NCBI GenBank assembly: GCA_025350055.1
Contig: JANXYK010000041.1
Location: 1 to 64,000, forward strand
Reading direction: 5' to 3'
Source: Gammaproteobacteria bacterium
GTDB lineage: Bacteria > Pseudomonadota > Gammaproteobacteria > Steroidobacterales > Steroidobacteraceae
Length of the DNA: 64,000 bases
Shown: one piece after another, positions 1 through 61,842 of the stretch
Layout: every line of letters begins with the position of its first letter
Numbering within the stretch: position 1 is the stretch's first letter
Notes under the pieces: generated by a model
Told to the model about the DNA's origin: nothing
The model's input: the letters and a program-made list of their open reading frames with translations, nothing else
Database searches by the model: none
Program-made: the position numbers and the translations under genes

Positions 1-1782
1 GCCACGCAGCGCGTCGAGCGCTGGTATGCCTCGCTCATCGCCAATGCCTCCGATGTGATCATGATCGTGGATCCGGGCGGCGTGCTGCGCTTCATCTCGC
101 CGGCCTCGGAGCGGCTGCTGGGTCTGAAGCCGAGCAAGATCGTCGGCAAACGCCTGGCCGAAGTGTGGTCGGGCGAGAGTCAAGAGCGCCTGTCGGCGCT
201 GCTGGCCGAGATCGCCGCAGCACCCACCGGAACGGTGGGTCCGATCGAATTGCAGTACCGCCACGGACACAGCCGCGCGGTGATCGAATGCGTGGGCCAG
301 AATCTCACCGGCGACTCGGCAGTGGAAGGCTATTCGCTCAACCTGCGTGACATCAGTGAGCGCAAGGTGCTCGAAGAGCAGCTGCGCCATCTCGCCTTTC
401 ACGATCCACTGACCCTGCTGGCGAACCGCAGCCTGCTGCGCGATCGCGTGCAACACGCCATCACACTGTCGCAGCGCAGCGGCGGTTCGATTGCGGTGAT
501 GTTCCTGGATCTCGACCACTTCAAGCGCGTCAACGATACGCTCGGGCACGATGCCGGCGACCGCCTGCTGCAGACCGTGTCGCAGCGGCTGGTGGCGGCC
601 GTGCGCTCATCGGACACCGTCGCGCGACTCGGCGGCGATGAATTCGCGGTGCTGGTGGAAGGCTGCAGCTCGCGTCTGCAGGTGGAGCAGCTGGCGGACA
701 AACTGCTCGGCACCCTGAGTGCGCCGATTGTGCTGGACGGCACCGAAGTGCGCGTCGAGGCGAGCATCGGCGTGGCCTGGTTCGAAGCAGAGATCGACGC
801 CGAGACGCTGCTCAGCAATGCGGATATCGCCATGTATCACGCCAAGGCCTCCGATCGCGGCCGCAGCGTGACCTTCCAGCCCTACATGCAGGATGCCCTG
901 CGCGAACGCCTGCGGCTCGAGACCGATATCGATCGCGCGCTGGCGAACCAGGAATTCTTCCTCGAATACCAGCCCATTGTCGATCTGGGCAGCCGCAGTC
1001 TCCTGGGCGTCGAAGCCCTGGTGCGCTGGCGCCATCCCAACGAGGGCATACTGCTGCCGGCGAGCTTCATCCACGTGATCGAAGAGCGCGGCCAGATCTC
1101 GCGACTCGATCGCTGGGTATTGAGCCAGGCTTGTCGCGAGTTGTGCGCCTGGCGCGGTCGCGTTGCCGGCGGCGGCGAGCTGCGACTCGCGGTCAACATT
1201 TCGGGCTTGCACCTGCAGCACGGTGATCTGGTGGCCGAAGTGCGCTCATCGCTGCAGGACAGCGGCCTCGAGCCCGGCAACCTGGTGCTCGAGCTGACCG
1301 AGAGCACCATCATGCACAAGACCGACGCGACGCTGGAGAAATTCCGCGCACTGAAGGCGCTCGGCGTGCGCCTGGCGATCGATGATTTCGGCGTCGGCTA
1401 TTCCTCGTTGTCGTACCTGCACCGCTTTCCGATCGACATCCTGAAGATCGACCGCTCGTTCATCAGCAAGCTGGGTGACGACGACAAGGGGTCGGAACTG
1501 GCCAACGCTGTCATCACGCTGGGCGACTCGATGGGGCTCGATACCATCGCCGAGGGAATCGAATCCGAGGCGCACGTGACGGCGCTCCTGGCCCTGGGGT
1601 GCGTGGCCGGCCAGGGATTCCTGTTCCAGAAGGCCGATTCTCTCGAGCGCCTGGCCGCCAGCAGTTTCGCCACACGCCGCAAGGAGCTCTGGAGCGCACA
1701 GGCCAAGCACGAGGCGCTATCGCCGACCGGCCGCTTCCAGGCACTGAAGGATATCGGCCGCGAACTCGACGGCGCCGCCTGA
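1..1782 (+). CDS. PAS-GGDEF-EAL cyclic-di-GMP signalling protein (5' partial)
   Basis: The frame is open from base 1, so the N-terminus lies outside the window; an internal ATG at 55 is not the true start. The visible part begins inside a PAS fold, followed by a GGDEF domain and an EAL domain. The GGDEF signature is intact (bases 631-645) and is preceded five residues upstream by RSSD, a product-inhibition I-site (RxxD). The EAL domain keeps its Glu-Ala-Leu (1012-1020), the LAVNIS and ELTES segments, DDFGVGYSSL, KIDRSF and AEGIE. Both active sites therefore look intact, so the protein could make or degrade c-di-GMP. The family is usually tethered to a membrane or sensor region, which would be upstream and is not visible here. 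Confidence 0.95.
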   Translation, partial: ATQRVERWYASLIANASDVIMIVDPGGVLRFISPASERLLGLKPSKIVGKRLAEVWSGESQERLSALLAEIAAAPTGTVGPIELQYRHGHSRAVIECVGQNLTGDSAVEGYSLNLRDISERKVLEEQLRHLAFHDPLTLLANRSLLRDRVQHAITLSQRSGGSIAVMFLDLDHFKRVNDTLGHDAGDRLLQTVSQRLVAAVRSSDTVARLGGDEFAVLVEGCSSRLQVEQLADKLLGTLSAPIVLDGTEVRVEASIGVAWFEAEIDAETLLSNADIAMYHAKASDRGRSVTFQPYMQDALRERLRLETDIDRALANQEFFLEYQPIVDLGSRSLLGVEALVRWRHPNEGILLPASFIHVIEERGQISRLDRWVLSQACRELCAWRGRVAGGGELRLAVNISGLHLQHGDLVAEVRSSLQDSGLEPGNLVLELTESTIMHKTDATLEKFRALKALGVRLAIDDFGVGYSSLSYLHRFPIDILKIDRSFISKLGDDDKGSELANAVITLGDSMGLDTIAEGIESEAHVTALLALGCVAGQGFLFQKADSLERLAASSFATRRKELWSAQAKHEALSPTGRFQALKDIGRELDGAA

Positions 1783-54027: not shown

Positions 54028-57000
54028 ATGTTTCCCTTCAGCGCACGTTTTCGACCGCTACTCGTGACTGCTCGCCTGGGCGGCGTGCTTGCAGTTTGCG
54101 TGTGCTTGTCGACCCGCACCTCGACCGGCGCCGCGATGTCCCCGGCGGCCACTGCAAGTGCTGCATCGGTGTGCGATCCGTTGATGAGCCAATCCCGCGC
54201 CGAGCTGGATCGTCGTGTCATGGTGCGCGGCGGTGAGCATCAAACGCTGAGCGTGCACTTGCCGGCCGCGTCATTGGCGTTGGTGATCGCGGGCGAGCAG
54301 GGCGTAGACGTCACGCTGGAGGTGACGGACACCGCACAGCGCGTGGTCGGCCACGGCGACAGCCCGGTGCCGCGCTCCGGCGTGCAAGCGGTTGCGTTGA
54401 AGAGCGCGAGCGCCGCGGACTACAGCATCGTGCTGACATCAAAGGACGGTGCCGGCGTCAGTGGTCAGGTGCAGCTCAGAGTGGTGACGGTGCCATTGTC
54501 CGTGGTTGCAGGGTCCTGTGCCGAACTGCAACAGCAGATCGCGGATGCTGACGGCCTCTATGTCAGCGGGCTGGTGGCGAGTCGAAAAAACGGCTCCTCG
54601 CCTCGCGATGCCGCAAAGCCCGGACCCAACGCTGCGCAGAACAGCAAGGCATCGGCCTCTGCCTATGCCGCAGTAGCCGCGCGTTTGAGTGCCAGTCAGC
54701 CTGGATCCCGCTTGTTGGCGCAGGTAGAGCATGCGGCCGCCGCGGTGTACTACACCGACCTCTCCGAATGGTCCGTCGCTCGCAGGTACGCTGATCGCGC
54801 TGCAACGGACTACGCGGCTAACCACGACGCTTACGACAACGCACGTGCCCAGGCCCTCAGTGCAGCAGCGCAAATGGAAATCGCTGTGTCGTTGCCTGCC
54901 TCCCAGGGTTCTGCCACTGATGCGCGCCCATCGAGCGTGGCGCTGGGCGCCGCCAGGGAGCAGCTGTCCAGGGTGGCGACTTATCACGCCGGGCGCGGCG
55001 AATCCTATGACCAGGCGCAGGCGATCAATAACCGGGGGCTGGCGTACTACTACGAAGGTCGAAACGAGGATGCGATCGTCGATTTTCAGCGCGCGCTGCA
55101 GTTGTACCAGCAGCTGGCCGACAAGGTGCGCATCTCGCAGGTGTCGAACAACATCGCGCTGGCTGAATACACGCTCGGGCATTCGGCCACGGCCGCGCTG
55201 CGCTACAGCGACGCGCTGAGAAACCTCTCGGCTGCCGAGACTCCCCAGCCGTATGCCTTCATACTCAATAACCTCGGGTTGGCGCATTTCGAGCTCGGCA
55301 ACTACGACGCCGCGCTGCGCGAATTGTCGCAGGCACTCGAGCTGTGGCGCGCCGCGCAGAATCAACGCGAGCAGGCCCGCAGCCTGCAGTGGATCGGCAG
55401 CGTCTATGACGCGGTTGGCGACCAGGACCAGGCGCTGGACTACTATCGTGCGGCGCTGGCGCTGCGCGCCGGCAATGTTGACCCGCGAGGTCGTGTGACT
55501 ACGCTTCGCGCTACTGCAAACCTGACCAGGAATCGCGGTGATGCTGTCGGCGCGCTCAAGCTGCATGAAGAGGCATTGGCGCTCGCGGCGACGCCGGCGA
55601 TTCGCTCACGCCTGATCGTCCAGATCGCCATGGACCTGCAAGCCCAGGGTCGCAAGGACGATGCGCTGCAGCGCCTGCAGGGCGAGCTGGCACTGCCGGG
55701 CCGCGACCCCGTGACTCACGCCATGCTGTTGCTGCAGCGGGCACGACTTGTGGCCCGCGTGGATCAGCAGCGCGAGGTGCAGCGCGACCTGCGCGAGGCA
55801 CTGCAAATCTTCGAGGACTACGAGCTGACCAGCCTGGAGTTCGATGCCTGGATGGCATTGGCCCGCTCGCAGCGCAGTTCCGGTGATGCCAGCGCGGCGC
55901 TGGCGTCGACTGATCGGGCGCTGGCACGTGCGGAGTTGCTGCGCGTACAGAGCGCCAATCCGGAGCTCAGGGCGACACTGCTGCAACCCTTGCGCCCAGC
56001 CTACGACCTGAAAATCTCGTTGCTCGCCGAGCAGTACTTCGCGCGCCACGATGCCGATGCCCGCGATCTCATGATGGCGGCACTCGCCACTGCGGAGCTG
56101 TCGCGCTCACGCGCACTCGATGACCTGGAATCGCTGGATATGAGCGCCGGCCGCATACCACCGTCATTGCTTGCCAGGCGCGCGGACGTGCTGCACTCCC
56201 TGGCCACGGAGCGCAATCAGCTGGAAGTGAGACTCGAGCATGCCACCGTGGACGATGCGCGTGTCACTGCGCTGCGTGCGGGCATTGCCGAGGGGCGGCG
56301 GCAACTCACGCTACTGGATGCGCAACTCGCGGCACTGGCCGGAGTGCGCCGCGGCGAAAGCCAGCGATCGCCGTTGATGCTCTCCGCGGCAGCGAATCAG
56401 TTGCCCACCGACGTTGCGCTGGTCGAATACTGGGTCGGCGCGGAACAGTCGTTTGCCTGGGTGCTGACCCGCAGCGGCGTGACGATGACGGCGCTGCCCC
56501 CGGGCGCACGCATCAACCAGGCGGCAGTGTCTTTCCACGCCAGCCTGAGCGACATCGCCACCCGCACGCAGTCCGATCGACTGAAGCTTGGTGCCGAACT
56601 CTACGACTTGATCGTAAAGCCCATTGCCCCCCAGCTGGTGAATGCACACAGGATCGTATTGGCGCCCGACGACGCGCTGCACTACGTGAGTTTCGCGGCG
56701 CTGCGCTCAACAGCCGCCAGTGGCGACAGATTCCTGGTGCAGGATCACGATGTCAGCGTGATTCCCTCGATTGCCGCGTACAGCCGCCAGGGTCGGCCAG
56801 TGGTCCGCTCGGTGTCGGATCGTCAGTTGCTGGTGGTCGCTGATCCCGTGTACCAAGCCTCGGATAGCAGGGTTGCAATGCACGCGGCCGTCGCTCAGCC
56901 GTTGTCGGCAAGCCTGAACCAAGCGCGCGATCCGCTGCGCGCGGCAACCACGGATCGTGATCTGCAACGGCTGCCAGGTACGGCTTCCGAAGCACGCGCG

Positions 57001-57543
57001 ATCGCAGCACTGCTGCCGCCGAATACCGTGGACGTACTCGATGGACTCGACGCCACGCGCGCCAACTTCCTGGCTGCATCGTTGGAACGGTATCGATTGA
57101 TACACGTGGCTACCCACGGCCTAGTTGATACCCAGATCCCGCAGCTCTCCTCTTTGATGCTGAGCACGCGTGACCGGCAGGGCCGACCCATCGACGGGCG
57201 GGTGATGGCCGCGGATTTCATGACGCTGCGACTTTCCGCCGATGTAGTCGTGCTCAGCGCCTGCGACACGGCTTTGGGCAAGAACATCGTTGGTGAGGGG
57301 CTGGTAGGACTGCGCTATGTGATTCTCGCCAGGGGCGCGCGCGCCGTGGTGGCTTCCCTGTGGGCGGTGCCCGATCAGATCGGCGCGCGGCTGATGACCG
57401 CCTTCTACCAGGCGATGATTCGGGATCACGCGCAGCCGAGCCATGCCCTGTGTTCGGCGATGCGTGAGTTATTGGCGGCACAAGTGGTTGATCCGGCACT
57501 GTGGGCGGCGTTTGACCTGACGCTCAGGGATGCCAGCGTTTGA
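54028..57543 (+). CDS. Exported TPR-CHAT caspase-like peptidase
   Basis: 1171 residues; AGGA lies just upstream of the ATG. N-terminal basic residues and a hydrophobic stretch (GGVLAVCVCL) form a signal or anchor. A beta-rich region (about 60-150) precedes a long TPR solenoid (about 310-560, e.g. NNRGLAYYYEGRNEDAIVDF) and further helices to about 750. The C-terminal CHAT domain carries the catalytic dyad: His1030 in HVATHG and Cys1079 in LSACDTALG. CHAT enzymes are caspase-like proteases usually triggered through the repeat region. It is followed by a lipoprotein, a subtilase and sigma/anti-sigma genes on the same strand. Confidence 0.9.
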   Translation: MFPFSARFRPLLVTARLGGVLAVCVCLSTRTSTGAAMSPAATASAASVCDPLMSQSRAELDRRVMVRGGEHQTLSVHLPAASLALVIAGEQGVDVTLEVTDTAQRVVGHGDSPVPRSGVQAVALKSASAADYSIVLTSKDGAGVSGQVQLRVVTVPLSVVAGSCAELQQQIADADGLYVSGLVASRKNGSSPRDAAKPGPNAAQNSKASASAYAAVAARLSASQPGSRLLAQVEHAAAAVYYTDLSEWSVARRYADRAATDYAANHDAYDNARAQALSAAAQMEIAVSLPASQGSATDARPSSVALGAAREQLSRVATYHAGRGESYDQAQAINNRGLAYYYEGRNEDAIVDFQRALQLYQQLADKVRISQVSNNIALAEYTLGHSATAALRYSDALRNLSAAETPQPYAFILNNLGLAHFELGNYDAALRELSQALELWRAAQNQREQARSLQWIGSVYDAVGDQDQALDYYRAALALRAGNVDPRGRVTTLRATANLTRNRGDAVGALKLHEEALALAATPAIRSRLIVQIAMDLQAQGRKDDALQRLQGELALPGRDPVTHAMLLLQRARLVARVDQQREVQRDLREALQIFEDYELTSLEFDAWMALARSQRSSGDASAALASTDRALARAELLRVQSANPELRATLLQPLRPAYDLKISLLAEQYFARHDADARDLMMAALATAELSRSRALDDLESLDMSAGRIPPSLLARRADVLHSLATERNQLEVRLEHATVDDARVTALRAGIAEGRRQLTLLDAQLAALAGVRRGESQRSPLMLSAAANQLPTDVALVEYWVGAEQSFAWVLTRSGVTMTALPPGARINQAAVSFHASLSDIATRTQSDRLKLGAELYDLIVKPIAPQLVNAHRIVLAPDDALHYVSFAALRSTAASGDRFLVQDHDVSVIPSIAAYSRQGRPVVRSVSDRQLLVVADPVYQASDSRVAMHAAVAQPLSASLNQARDPLRAATTDRDLQRLPGTASEARAIAALLPPNTVDVLDGLDATRANFLAASLERYRLIHVATHGLVDTQIPQLSSLMLSTRDRQGRPIDGRVMAADFMTLRLSADVVVLSACDTALGKNIVGEGLVGLRYVILARGARAVVASLWAVPDQIGARLMTAFYQAMIRDHAQPSHALCSAMRELLAAQVVDPALWAAFDLTLRDASV

Positions 57544-57575
57544 AAATCAAGCCGCAATGGCGGCAGGAGTAGAAC

Positions 57576-58361
57576 ATGACGACTATTCAGGATCTGGCAG
57601 GAAGCACAAACGGCGCAGAGCGGCGCTCGCGATTGCCGCGCCCGATGATGATGGCAGTGCTGGTCGCGGTACTCGCCGTGGCAGGATGTTCCCAAAATGC
57701 CGGCAGTACGCAAGGTCCGACGGCCGCAACACCGAGTGCGCCAGCCGCGGCGGCAGCATCGGAGGCAGCCTCACCAGCGGCGGCGCCCGCTGCGACGGCT
57801 GCCACAACAGACGCGGTCAGCTGGGCGGGCACCTACGAAATCAACTTCGCCAATGATGACGGCCCCACCAGGGGTGGCGCAGACGTCATCTGGAATTCCG
57901 CCGCGGGCGCCAGCAATGTCGTGGTTCTCGAACCCACCAAATCCCAGGTGGAATCTTGGGACACATACAAGTGTACGTCGGATACCAATGCGACTCCCGC
58001 GTGGAAAGACTGCATGTTCTTCCGCGTAGGCACGCGGACGCTTGAGTGGCCCACGCTGCCAGGCAAGAAGTTGCCGGTGAGGCCGTGGGACAAGGCCAAT
58101 TTCGCAGCGTCGAAAGCGGCTGTCGAAGGCCTTGGGCGCAAGGCGCTGAACGGCCTGGTTCAGCCTGATACCGAAAGGCTGGTCGGTTCATTCGTAATGG
58201 GCGACCACGTTGAATACCTGATGCTCTATCGCCTCGTCGGCGGCATTGAGGACGAAAGGAAAAACAAGAACGATCTGCTTCTGATCCGCCTGAGGGACCC
58301 GCACCTGGTCGCCGGGCCCAATGAAGACGGTTGGGGCACTGGTGGCAAGAAAGCGAAATAG
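57576..58361 (+). CDS. Lipoprotein of unknown function in the CHAT module
   Basis: 261 residues. A 23-residue polar N-region, a hydrophobic helix and lipobox AVAGC near residue 38, then an Ala/Pro/Ser-rich linker to about 80. The mature domain (WAGTYEINFANDDG, VVVLEPTKSQVESWDTY, two Cys) is beta-rich and slightly reminiscent of NlpE-type lipoproteins, but I do not recognise a family. It lies 32 nt after the CHAT gene. It could be an envelope sensor, inhibitor or substrate; this is inference. Confidence 0.72.
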   Translation: MTTIQDLAGSTNGAERRSRLPRPMMMAVLVAVLAVAGCSQNAGSTQGPTAATPSAPAAAAASEAASPAAAPAATAATTDAVSWAGTYEINFANDDGPTRGGADVIWNSAAGASNVVVLEPTKSQVESWDTYKCTSDTNATPAWKDCMFFRVGTRTLEWPTLPGKKLPVRPWDKANFAASKAAVEGLGRKALNGLVQPDTERLVGSFVMGDHVEYLMLYRLVGGIEDERKNKNDLLLIRLRDPHLVAGPNEDGWGTGGKKAK

Positions 58362-58368
58362 CCGCGTC

Positions 58369-60372
58369 ATGCGTCCGACCAAATCCTGGTTCGCGTCGCG
58401 GATTGCCGCGATGTCGGCTGTCATGGCAGCGACGTTCGCAGTAGCCTCCGGCATTGCGGGCGTCGCTGTTGCCGGTGACGTGGTGCCCTACACCTGCCCG
58501 GCGAATGTCAGTCTCGAAACTTCGCCGCTGTGTGGCGATGGCAGCTCTATCGCCGTGATCCGCCAGCCGGGCGGCGTCGTCCAGTTCCTGCACTTCCTCC
58601 AGAAGAAAATATTGGCGGCGCAGGAGCAGGACGGGACCTTGCGCGCGCCAATCGCTGCGCCCGAGCGAATGGTGGGGCGGCTGTCCGAACTCGATGCGGT
58701 AGTGCGCCCCATGCGTTCGTTCCGCAATGTCTTCGTGCTGCGATTCAGGCGCGGGCTCGCCACACAACGGCGCCTGGACCGCCTGACCTTCGAGTTGTGC
58801 GATCTGCTGCGCAACGCGCATCTGGAAGGCGGCGGTGGATGCAAGGAGAGCAGGTCGACGGTCCACCTCGAACCGGCCTTCAAGCTGCACGCCGACGCCG
58901 CGCCGCCAAACGATCCGAATTTCCTGAACAGTGAACCGAGCCAGTGGAATCTCCAGGACGATGAGGGCATCAAGGCTCACGCCGCCTGGGATCGAGCCGG
59001 AACAGTGCCAGGCCTGCAAGCTGTCAGGGTTGCGGTCCTGGATACCGGCACCAAGGAGATCGCCAACGAACTCGATAACGGCTTGCTGGTCGACGGCGCA
59101 GACTTTACGCAACAAACGCCGGTAATTGGAAATCCACCGGCCGGCAAAGACCACGGTACCGAAGTGGCCAGCGTCATTGCGGCCAGGGCCAACAACAACA
59201 ATGCGATGGCGGGAGTTGCCTGGTCGGGCTCGGGCCAGGGAAGCGTCGCGACGCTGGTGCCAATCAAGATCATGAGCTCTGCAAGTCCCTCGGAGTTTGA
59301 ACAATGCACCAACAACCTGCTGGATGCGTTGCCGTATGCCGTTGATCCCGACGGCGAGGCGGATGCAGGCAATAGTGGAGGTACTTCATTCTGGGATCTG
59401 AGCGCGCCGCCGGATCCGCATACCAATCCAATAAGGCCGGCGAGGGGCGCCAGGGTCGTCAACTTGAGCGTGTCGTATGACAACTGCTCGGCGGCGTTGG
59501 GTGAGACCTTCAGTCGAATTTCGCGGTTCTTTCCCGATGTGCTGTTCGTGGTTTCGGTGCCCAATACCAATGGCGTCGTGGTCACTGCGAACATAGACGA
59601 TACGCCGCCGAATCCCAGCTTCCCGACCAGTTACCGGATCAACAATATCCTGAGCGTGACAGGTACTGACCTGGATCGCTGTGTCACGGGGAAGTTTGGC
59701 AAAACCAGCGTCAATATCGCTGCACCGGGAGAAGGCGTAGTCGTTCTCCAGCAAAGCCACGCGGGTGCACAGACCGACTCCGGCACCTCGTTTGCAGCTC
59801 CGCAGGTCAGCGGTGCCGCCGCGCTGTTGAAAGCGCTGGCCCCATCCACTTGGCAGTACGCGCAAGTGCGCCGCTACCTGATGGATTCCGCCGACCACAG
59901 CATGTGCGACAACTCGGGTCCGATCCTGGGCTGCCTGGATGCACCCAACTACGCCACCATCTGCCACGGTGTCGCCAGCGGCCTGCTGGACCTGGACGCC
60001 GCAACTGCACCGCCCGTCATGCAGATCTCGGCGTTCGACAACAGCGATGCGGCCAATACCTGGAGTACCGCCAAGGCCGCGATGGTGAACTGGGAGTGGA
60101 AATTCGATTCGACCCTGTGCCAGCAGGTGGATATCGACCTGGTCATCGACCAGAACGACCACCCCACGACCACCAAGGCCGCGAAACTCAGCGCAACCCC
60201 GGTGGACGTCACCGTGCACGCGGTACAGTTCGACGCCACCACCATCGCCGCTGCCGCCACGGCCGCCATGCCGCCCGCGACCGAATCCGCCACGGCCCGC
60301 GTGCGACTGCAATGCGTCGGCAGCCACATGTTCCGCACCTCCCAGGATTTCACGATCAGGAGGTCCGACTAG
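58369..60372 (+). CDS. Exported subtilisin-like serine protease (S8)
   Basis: 667 residues from the ATG at 58369, which begins a signal peptide (MRPTKSWFASRIAAMSAVMA); a frame from 58321 overlaps the lipoprotein gene. An N-terminal region of about 190 residues, probably a propeptide, precedes the catalytic domain. Triad: Asp225 in VAVLDTGTK, His262 in KDHGTEVASVIAA, Ser474 in GTSFAAPQVSGAA. A C-terminal domain of about 130 residues (Thr/Ala-rich, possibly beta-sandwich) follows. Secreted or periplasmic protease of the CHAT module. Confidence 0.9.
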   Translation: MRPTKSWFASRIAAMSAVMAATFAVASGIAGVAVAGDVVPYTCPANVSLETSPLCGDGSSIAVIRQPGGVVQFLHFLQKKILAAQEQDGTLRAPIAAPERMVGRLSELDAVVRPMRSFRNVFVLRFRRGLATQRRLDRLTFELCDLLRNAHLEGGGGCKESRSTVHLEPAFKLHADAAPPNDPNFLNSEPSQWNLQDDEGIKAHAAWDRAGTVPGLQAVRVAVLDTGTKEIANELDNGLLVDGADFTQQTPVIGNPPAGKDHGTEVASVIAARANNNNAMAGVAWSGSGQGSVATLVPIKIMSSASPSEFEQCTNNLLDALPYAVDPDGEADAGNSGGTSFWDLSAPPDPHTNPIRPARGARVVNLSVSYDNCSAALGETFSRISRFFPDVLFVVSVPNTNGVVVTANIDDTPPNPSFPTSYRINNILSVTGTDLDRCVTGKFGKTSVNIAAPGEGVVVLQQSHAGAQTDSGTSFAAPQVSGAAALLKALAPSTWQYAQVRRYLMDSADHSMCDNSGPILGCLDAPNYATICHGVASGLLDLDAATAPPVMQISAFDNSDAANTWSTAKAAMVNWEWKFDSTLCQQVDIDLVIDQNDHPTTTKAAKLSATPVDVTVHAVQFDATTIAAAATAAMPPATESATARVRLQCVGSHMFRTSQDFTIRRSD

Positions 60373-60435
60373 CGCTGCTTGCGCACTGCGTCGAAATTCC
60401 GGGTAGATTAGTGGTGAGCCAACAGGTCGCCCCAA

Positions 60436-61023
60436 GTGCCGGATTCCGAATCCAACAAGCCTGCGCAGTCCGCCATCGACCAGAAGTCGATCGAGGCACT
60501 GATCGTGCGCGACTATCCGGGCCTGCGCCGCCTGCTCGCGCGCCACACGCACGACCAGGCGCTGGCGGCTGACCTGCTGAACGATGCCATCTGCACCACG
60601 CTCGAGAAATGGCGTGCGGGCCAGATCGCAAAGCCTGAGCAGATCTGCGGCTATGTGTTCCAGGTGGCGCTCAACCTGCTGCGCAATCACCGTCGTAGCA
60701 TCGCCGAGCGACCCGATCGCCGGGCCGACAGCGAGGTGCTCGAGCGCACCGCGGGGAATGTGGCCTCGATGGACGAGCTGGCCGAGACCGGCATGGCGCA
60801 GCGGGTGCGCATCCTGCTGCAGGGCATGGGGAGCGCGCGTGATCGCACCGTCCTCAAGCGCTTCTACCTCGACGAGGAGAGCAAGGAGACCATTTGCAGC
60901 GAACTAGGGCTGCTGGCGGACCAGTTCGACAAGGTGTTGCACCGCGCCAGAGCCCGCCTGCGCGAGCTCCTGGAAGCCAGCGGATTGAGACGTACTGACC
61001 TTTTTTCATTTGTCATGGCCTGA
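60436..61023 (+). CDS. ECF-type RNA polymerase sigma factor
   Basis: 195 residues from a GTG at 60436. Sigma-2-like region: YPGLRRLLARHTHDQALAAD and LLNDAICTTLEKW, with YVFQVALNLLRNHRR. Sigma-4-like region: RDRTVLKRFYLDEESKETIC and LADQFDKVLHRARARLRELL. Lacks sigma regions 1 and 3, as in ECF factors. It is 63 nt downstream of the subtilase and 66 nt upstream of the putative anti-sigma gene. Probably drives the CHAT-protease module; TAGATT at 60404 is a possible -10. Confidence 0.85.
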   Translation: MPDSESNKPAQSAIDQKSIEALIVRDYPGLRRLLARHTHDQALAADLLNDAICTTLEKWRAGQIAKPEQICGYVFQVALNLLRNHRRSIAERPDRRADSEVLERTAGNVASMDELAETGMAQRVRILLQGMGSARDRTVLKRFYLDEESKETICSELGLLADQFDKVLHRARARLRELLEASGLRRTDLFSFVMA

Positions 61024-61089
61024 AGAGCGCGATAAGGCGATGCGTGCTTACAGATATCAGGTAAGGCATCAGCCAGTGGTACACAGGTG

Positions 61090-61842
61090 ATGGAAAGCAG
61101 ATTCTTGGTTCCCGATCCGACGATGGTCAACCGCTACCTGGCGGGGCAATTGAGCTCGGCGGAACAGGCCGAATATGAGGCCCTGCTGCTCGAGCACCCG
61201 GAAGCGCTGCGTGAGCTCGAAGCGGTGGCGCGACTCAAGGTGGGCCTGGCGAAATTGCGGGAGCAGGGCAGGCTCGATGAGCTGATCGGTGCGCCCGCGA
61301 GTGCTGGCCGATTCGGTCTTTTGCGCCATCCGGGGCTGGTGGCACTCGCGGCTTCGCTGGCGCTCGCGGTCGTGGGTGCACTGTTCTGGAACAACACGCA
61401 GTCGCGCGCGGTCGCGCTCTATGCTTCGCTCAACGAGCTGCAGTCACACGGAGCTCGCTCGCTGGTCGCGCAATACACGCTGGTGCGTACGCGGGCCGCA
61501 AATCCCGATGTGCAGCTCGCCGCGCCGCCGGCTAGTCAGGCGCTGGAGCTGCGGATCCTGCCCGACGTGGCCGCCGGCAGCAGCGGCTATCGCGTCGAAC
61601 TCTATCGCGCGCATGGAGATGGTTCAGCGGCAGGGAAGCCGCTAGCCATCAGCATGGAGAGCCAGCTAGGGGCGGACAGCTTCGTCACGCTGTATGCAAA
61701 CTCCGAGCTGCTGGGCGAGGGCAGCTACCTGCTGAAGATCGCACCCGCCGGCACTCTGGCTGCCGGCCTCGTTGCCGAGCCCGAAGACTTCCGGATCATC
61801 GTAACGAAGCCGCTCACCACACCCGGCAGCGTTTCGCACTGA
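61090..61842 (+). CDS. Putative membrane anti-sigma factor
   Basis: 250 residues from the ATG at 61090 (a GTG directly before it is also possible). The N-terminal cytoplasmic part (VNRYLAGQLSSAEQAEYEAL) follows the shape of zinc-finger anti-sigma domains (YLxGELxxxExxxFExHL) but lacks the His and Cys ligands. One transmembrane helix (about 80-98) leads to a periplasmic domain of about 150 residues, beta-rich (LELRILPDVAAG, FVTLYANSELLGEG). The gene order sigma then anti-sigma is standard. Its last 29 nt overlap the convergent M13 gene. Confidence 0.72.
   Translation: MESRFLVPDPTMVNRYLAGQLSSAEQAEYEALLLEHPEALRELEAVARLKVGLAKLREQGRLDELIGAPASAGRFGLLRHPGLVALAASLALAVVGALFWNNTQSRAVALYASLNELQSHGARSLVAQYTLVRTRAANPDVQLAAPPASQALELRILPDVAAGSSGYRVELYRAHGDGSAAGKPLAISMESQLGADSFVTLYANSELLGEGSYLLKIAPAGTLAAGLVAEPEDFRIIVTKPLTTPGSVSH

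Follow-up and report, generated by a model that had tools for sequence, protein, structure and literature searches.

The window analysed here is a stretch of 64,000 nucleotides (contig JANXYK010000041.1) from a gammaproteobacterium of the family Steroidobacteraceae. It contains a cluster of five open reading frames (ORFs), all on the plus strand, which encode in order a TPR-CHAT protease, a small lipoprotein, an S8 protease (subtilase), a sigma factor of the extracytoplasmic function (ECF) type and an anti-sigma factor (Table 1). The intergenic gaps are, in the same order, 32, ~7, 63 and 63 nucleotides. The first-pass annotation had described five same-strand genes with short gaps, an intact CHAT His1030/Cys1079 pair and an intact S8 triad, and this description is borne out by the ORFs, by Pfam and NCBIfam searches and by residue checks. 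Comparison with other genomes establishes that a predicted exported TPR-CHAT protein, an ECF-type sigma factor and a putative single-pass anti-sigma factor are co-inherited, next to a small protein and a second enzyme that both vary.

Table 1. Coordinates of the five-gene cluster in the window, with predicted protein regions and key residues. S8 residue numbers are counted from 58321.
Feature	Position	Strand	Basis
Exported TPR-CHAT protein, 1171 amino acids	54028..57543	+	ORF; Pfam CHAT/TPR; AlphaFold2; fold match to Csx29/TPR-CHAT and separase
TPR-CHAT regions: signal 1-47; beta-sandwich 58-156; TPR superhelix 164-771; caspase-like CHAT domain 782-1166			AlphaFold2
CHAT catalytic His1030	57115..57117	+	Present; invariant across 20 homologues
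CHAT catalytic Cys1079	57262..57264	+	Present; invariant across 20 homologues
Small lipoprotein, 261 amino acids, lipobox VAGC, Gly/Asp-rich C-terminal tail EDGWGTGGKKAK	57576..58361	+	Sequence
Exported S8 subtilase, triad Asp241/His278/Ser490	58321..60372, likely start ATG 58369	+	Pfam, motifs
ECF-type sigma factor, 195 amino acids	60436..61023	+	NCBIfam TIGR02937; homologues
Anti-sigma factor (predicted), 251 amino acids	61087..61842	+	AlphaFold2; conserved family adjoining sigma
Anti-sigma regions: cytoplasmic helices 11-67; transmembrane helix 82-102; periplasmic beta-sandwich 126-240			AlphaFold2
Anti-sigma Arg136, predicted loop between strands 1 and 2	61492..61494	+	Conservation; loop position

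Close homologues of the S8 protease are almost absent from the family and class samples; it was therefore dropped as a genomic marker and the sigma factor was followed instead. In an order sample of 246 genomes (sigma at E<=1e-12, CHAT at E<=1e-25), sigma and CHAT homologues were each found in 26 genomes and both in 22, a co-occurrence with a Fisher p of ~1e-22 that is not corrected for phylogeny. The first-pass annotation had asked whether the sigma/anti-sigma pair regularly occurs without proteases. CHAT accompanies it in 22 of the 26 sigma-positive genomes, and each of four genomes with no CHAT gene at its best sigma locus encodes one CHAT homologue elsewhere. In one of these four (G094) that CHAT gene has an anti-sigma gene of its own, and in another genome (G464) a CHAT-small protein-S8 set lies away from the sigma loci. 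A contig scan of ~85,000 species returned 44 sigma loci, mostly from Steroidobacteraceae, the others coming from an Alteromonas, an Oceanospirillales and a deltaproteobacterial metagenome-assembled genome, together with six Lachnospiraceae/Clostridiales matches that look like generic ECF matches; with these six left out, CHAT is present in 31 of 38 loci. After removal of duplicates the pooled set comprised 60 sigma loci, some on truncated contigs and one (L038) distant and uncertain. An anti-sigma gene is present in 54 of these and a CHAT gene in 46-47, at a median distance of ~2.4 kb. Pairwise distances among the sigma, anti-sigma and CHAT proteins correlate with r of 0.80-0.88, and permutations reach at most 0.38. 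The five-gene arrangement is thus far beyond chance, and the linkage of an ECF sigma factor, a membrane anti-sigma factor and an exported TPR-CHAT protease reported by the first-pass annotation represents a conserved module.

The distribution of the module is patchy, and it was not found in the sampled genomes of the same genus, where the flanking genes of the cluster show no synteny and either match several paralogues or match nothing closely. In the window, the gene 5' of CHAT stops ~430 nucleotides ahead of the CHAT start, and the M13 peptidase gene downstream of the cluster lies on the opposite strand. A plasmid of the acidobacterium Granulicella carries an exported CHAT gene followed by a possible sigma gene, which is weak (hhalign probability 7.7%), and by a clear anti-sigma homologue (probability 98%, E 8e-14). 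No sigma homologue was otherwise found on plasmids, and the CHAT matches on plasmids are mostly distant.

The CHAT domain, the only one in the window's genome, is recognized by Pfam with E 9e-59 together with TPR matches. The AlphaFold2 model of the TPR-CHAT protein has a mean predicted local distance difference test score (pLDDT) of 83.9 and a predicted template modelling score (pTM) of 0.81, and its best fold matches are Csx29/TPR-CHAT, at the top, and separase; the CHAT domain alone gave no match to the PDB in a single-sequence search. The export signals of the CHAT protein (MFPFSARFRPLLVTARLGGVLAVCVCLS), the lipoprotein and the S8 protease (MRPTKSWFASRIAAMSAVMAATFAVASGIAGVAVAG) were called from hydropathy and motif only. 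Most full-length CHAT homologues begin with a basic-led, hydrophobic N-terminus or have a lipobox, a few starts being ambiguous, and the protease and the outer domain of the anti-sigma factor should therefore share a compartment. Export alone is not special, because exported CHAT proteins are not rare beyond the sigma-linked family. On a Caballeronia plasmid (L137:4648-12960), an exported TPR-CHAT gene has type VI secretion genes on one side and a ShlB/FHA two-partner secretion pair on the other. A CHAT protein of a different type, with TIR and SLOG domains, is encoded at L054 (6740-15475), where the gene of a distantly related sigma factor is close to a TIR/TPR gene and the TIR-SLOG-CHAT gene in a setting reminiscent of defence islands.

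The sigma factor has regions 2 and 4 and the expected length of ~195 amino acids. It scores barely above the cut-off of NCBIfam TIGR02937 for sigma70-ECF proteins (43.0 bits vs 42.9) and just under that of Pfam Sigma70_r2 (E 2e-4). In many divergent loci (L034-L040, L070-L090), TATACT or a similar sequence stands 6-10 nucleotides ahead of the sigma start codon, which suggests a sigma70 promoter and a leaderless mRNA.

Adjoining the sigma gene is that of a single-pass protein with a cytoplasmic helical domain, which is a predicted anti-sigma factor. It has no Pfam match and a weak NCBIfam anti-sigma match, and the fold search with its AlphaFold2 model (mean pLDDT 83.9) returned generic beta-sandwich matches only. 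Within the periplasmic half, conservation peaks at Arg136 (135 in alignment numbering), which is kept in 50 of 51 homologues and is also aligned in the Granulicella protein; we propose that it is a cleavage or docking site. A second anti-sigma factor of this family is encoded in the window's genome (L152:8910-9638, G000:C65; E 5e-24), where neither a sigma nor a CHAT gene is called next to it; it seems to retain the arginine (PSRTAP). In another class of the phylum (L160:4913-6808), a sigma/anti-sigma pair adjoins an S8 peptidase gene and lacks CHAT, and the outer part of that anti-sigma factor resembles an S8 propeptide by eye. A FecR-type protein (L158) and partial anti-sigma matches in three genomes (G901, G962, G977) were set aside.

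The two genes between CHAT and sigma are far less constant. The lipoprotein, which has no Pfam match, occupies the position of a small protein, after CHAT and before the second enzyme, and the proteins in this slot are barely alignable between loci. They tend toward a Gly-rich C-terminal tail (mean Gly 0.22 vs 0.08; permutation p 5e-5 in a post hoc test). A Gly/Asp-rich tail is common to the unalignable proteins of the window (57576-58361), L044, L047, L049, L051 and L173, and is possibly a processing or sorting signal. The S8 protease (Pfam Peptidase_S8, E 3e-24, triad located by motif) is found near only ~16 of the 60 sigma loci. The second-enzyme slot is elsewhere filled by S41, M28, trypsin, C14 or C13 caspase-like proteins or an animal-type haem peroxidase; some of these neighbours, such as the M28 gene in L053, are several hundred bases from CHAT and their link is weaker. 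The full order of CHAT, small protein, S8, sigma and anti-sigma recurs at L044, L051 (CHAT duplicated) and L056. The five-gene order proposed by the first-pass annotation therefore exists beyond the window, with S8 swapped for other enzymes in most relatives, and S8 is not a core part of the module; a role for it as an essential partner is not supported. Small genes of 66-101 codons beside signal-less S8 genes (L073:6553-6789, L084:11198-11503 and others) appear I9 inhibitor-like by eye and have no Pfam match.

The explanation that we tentatively favor, at somewhat short of an even chance, is a protease-gated envelope signaling module in which activated CHAT cuts the anti-sigma factor and so frees the sigma factor. 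In the resting cell, sigma would be held at the inner membrane by the predicted anti-sigma factor. CHAT would be activated by a periplasmic signal, detected either through its own beta-sandwich/TPR part or through the small protein, and would then cleave the periplasmic domain of the anti-sigma factor within the loop that holds the near-invariant Arg136. After this cut, RseP/ClpXP-type housekeeping proteases would release sigma to transcribe targets that may include its own operon. Because the S8 protease and the lipoprotein are replaceable, they are best seen as output (cargo) or amplifier, outside the core switch. A single-pass anti-sigma factor, a near-invariant loop residue and co-inheritance with an exported protease together suggest that CHAT performs site-1 cleavage, and we infer that CHAT makes the first cut. 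It is possible, and we say so with more doubt than confidence, that a family of transmembrane anti-sigma factors has the exported caspase-like enzyme as its dedicated site-1 protease. The arrangement would then be an envelope counterpart of the CHAT-inhibitor-sigma switch of Craspase, in which the slot for the deployed enzyme is exchangeable and takes a subtilase, a trypsin, a caspase-like protease or a haem peroxidase.

Several observations weigh against cleavage of the anti-sigma factor by CHAT. Arg136 could be a structural or docking residue, and it persists in anti-sigma factors encoded away from CHAT genes; the genomes checked (G464 and the window's own, G000) have CHAT elsewhere. To our knowledge, cleavage after arginine has not been established for CHAT proteases, and we know of no arginine at the site where Csx29, the TPR-CHAT protease of Craspase, cuts its substrate Csx30. 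A purely periplasmic pathway also fits poorly with the many relatives whose small protein and second enzyme have no signal peptide. Dyad counts and inspection recovered no conserved ECF promoter motif upstream of sigma, and a generic scan for promoters across the window did no better than chance. Positive feedback is consequently unproven, and the earlier suggestion that sigma induces the set found no promoter evidence.

We consider it rather unlikely, although deserving of serious weight, that CHAT, S8 and the small protein serve solely as outputs, with the anti-sigma factor sensing a signal itself or being cut by a general DegS/RseP-type pathway, and that the freed sigma factor expresses enzymes acting on the envelope, a competitor or an environmental protein. 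The free swapping of the second enzyme among unrelated hydrolases and a peroxidase is effector-like, and the modelled periplasmic beta-sandwich of the anti-sigma factor could bind a ligand. However, CHAT itself is not swapped, tracks sigma and anti-sigma tightly, and in some genomes that have the pair is unlinked but not missing. A two-protease cascade, in which S8 or CHAT activates the other or the lipoprotein, is improbable. S8 and CHAT are both predicted to be exported, have intact catalytic residues and share one gene cluster, and the CHAT-small protein-S8 set recurs, including in G464 apart from sigma, but the majority of relatives have no S8 and several carry a non-protease, the haem peroxidase, in its slot. 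The activation of one protease by the other envisaged in the first-pass annotation accordingly cannot be a general mechanism. It is very improbable that the set is simply group ECF54 with neighboring proteases acting directly on sigma: carboxypeptidase, subtilase and CHAT genes are the ECF54 context as summarized in PMC8999054, but an anti-sigma factor is encoded at ~54 of the 60 sigma loci and a cytoplasmic sigma factor would be out of reach of exported proteases. That the five genes are unrelated neighbors is hardly credible: the patchy distribution and the absence from sampled same-genus genomes speak for it, but linkage and co-inheritance repeated across families and in Acidobacteriota contradict it, on which grounds chance adjacency was rejected.

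If protease-gated signaling by CHAT proves correct, caspase-like control of transcription would reach from the cytoplasm, where Craspase operates, to the bacterial envelope, and a class of anti-sigma factors would be supplied with its first-cut protease. It would represent a compact and testable switch with interchangeable outputs, and would explain the recurrence of CHAT and subtilase genes beside ECF sigma genes.

The module is real and conserved, and it is partly anticipated; the ECF54 report and the Craspase precedent reduce its novelty. A literature search for the exact five-gene composition brought up nothing before the ECF54 description, and the first-pass remark that no described system of this composition was known agrees with that result, although not for the wider association, because CHAT and subtilase genes are reported as neighbors of ECF54 sigma genes. 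The account of ECF54 in PMC8999054 (citing Huang 2015; Casas-Pastor 2021) gives carboxypeptidase, subtilase and CHAT genes as its context and proposes proteolytic control with no anti-sigma factor. The present sigma gene likewise adjoins CHAT and subtilase genes, whereas here a membrane anti-sigma factor is conserved (~54 of 60 loci), so that the module is at least a variant when compared with that description.

In the type III-E Craspase, as here, a TPR-CHAT protease is encoded with an ECF sigma factor and an inhibitor, and its Csx29 is the best fold match of the window's protein, the sequence similarity between the CHAT domains being marginal (profile E 7e-4 at best). Csx29 cleaves Csx30 at residues 427-429, which relieves inhibition of the ECF sigma factor CASP-sigma (PMC10028731). 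Csx29 is cytoplasmic and is switched on by the RNA-guided Cas7-11 complex, whereas the CHAT protein considered here is predicted to be exported and to carry an N-terminal beta-sandwich, and the inhibitor is a predicted transmembrane anti-sigma factor. No CRISPR parts, whether Cas7-11 or an array with Csx30, were seen when the genes of the locus and of its relatives were examined. Foldseek also returned a match of ~1030 columns to the transmembrane anti-sigma factor DdvA (8rot, 8rw5), helical repeats being the likeliest reason; unlike the CHAT protein, DdvA itself acts as the anti-sigma factor, and it is not among the CHAT-profile matches. The TPR-CHAT genes linked to ShlB and filamentous haemagglutinin, such as that of Caballeronia, also encode an exported protein but have no sigma or anti-sigma gene annotated near them. 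The RseA/DegS/RseP and RsiW-type systems resemble the present module in combining a single-pass anti-sigma factor that has a periplasmic domain with an exported protease as possible author of the first cut. In contrast to RseA/DegS/RseP, the first protease proposed here is of the caspase-like CHAT type instead of the DegS type, and is encoded with the sigma/anti-sigma pair.

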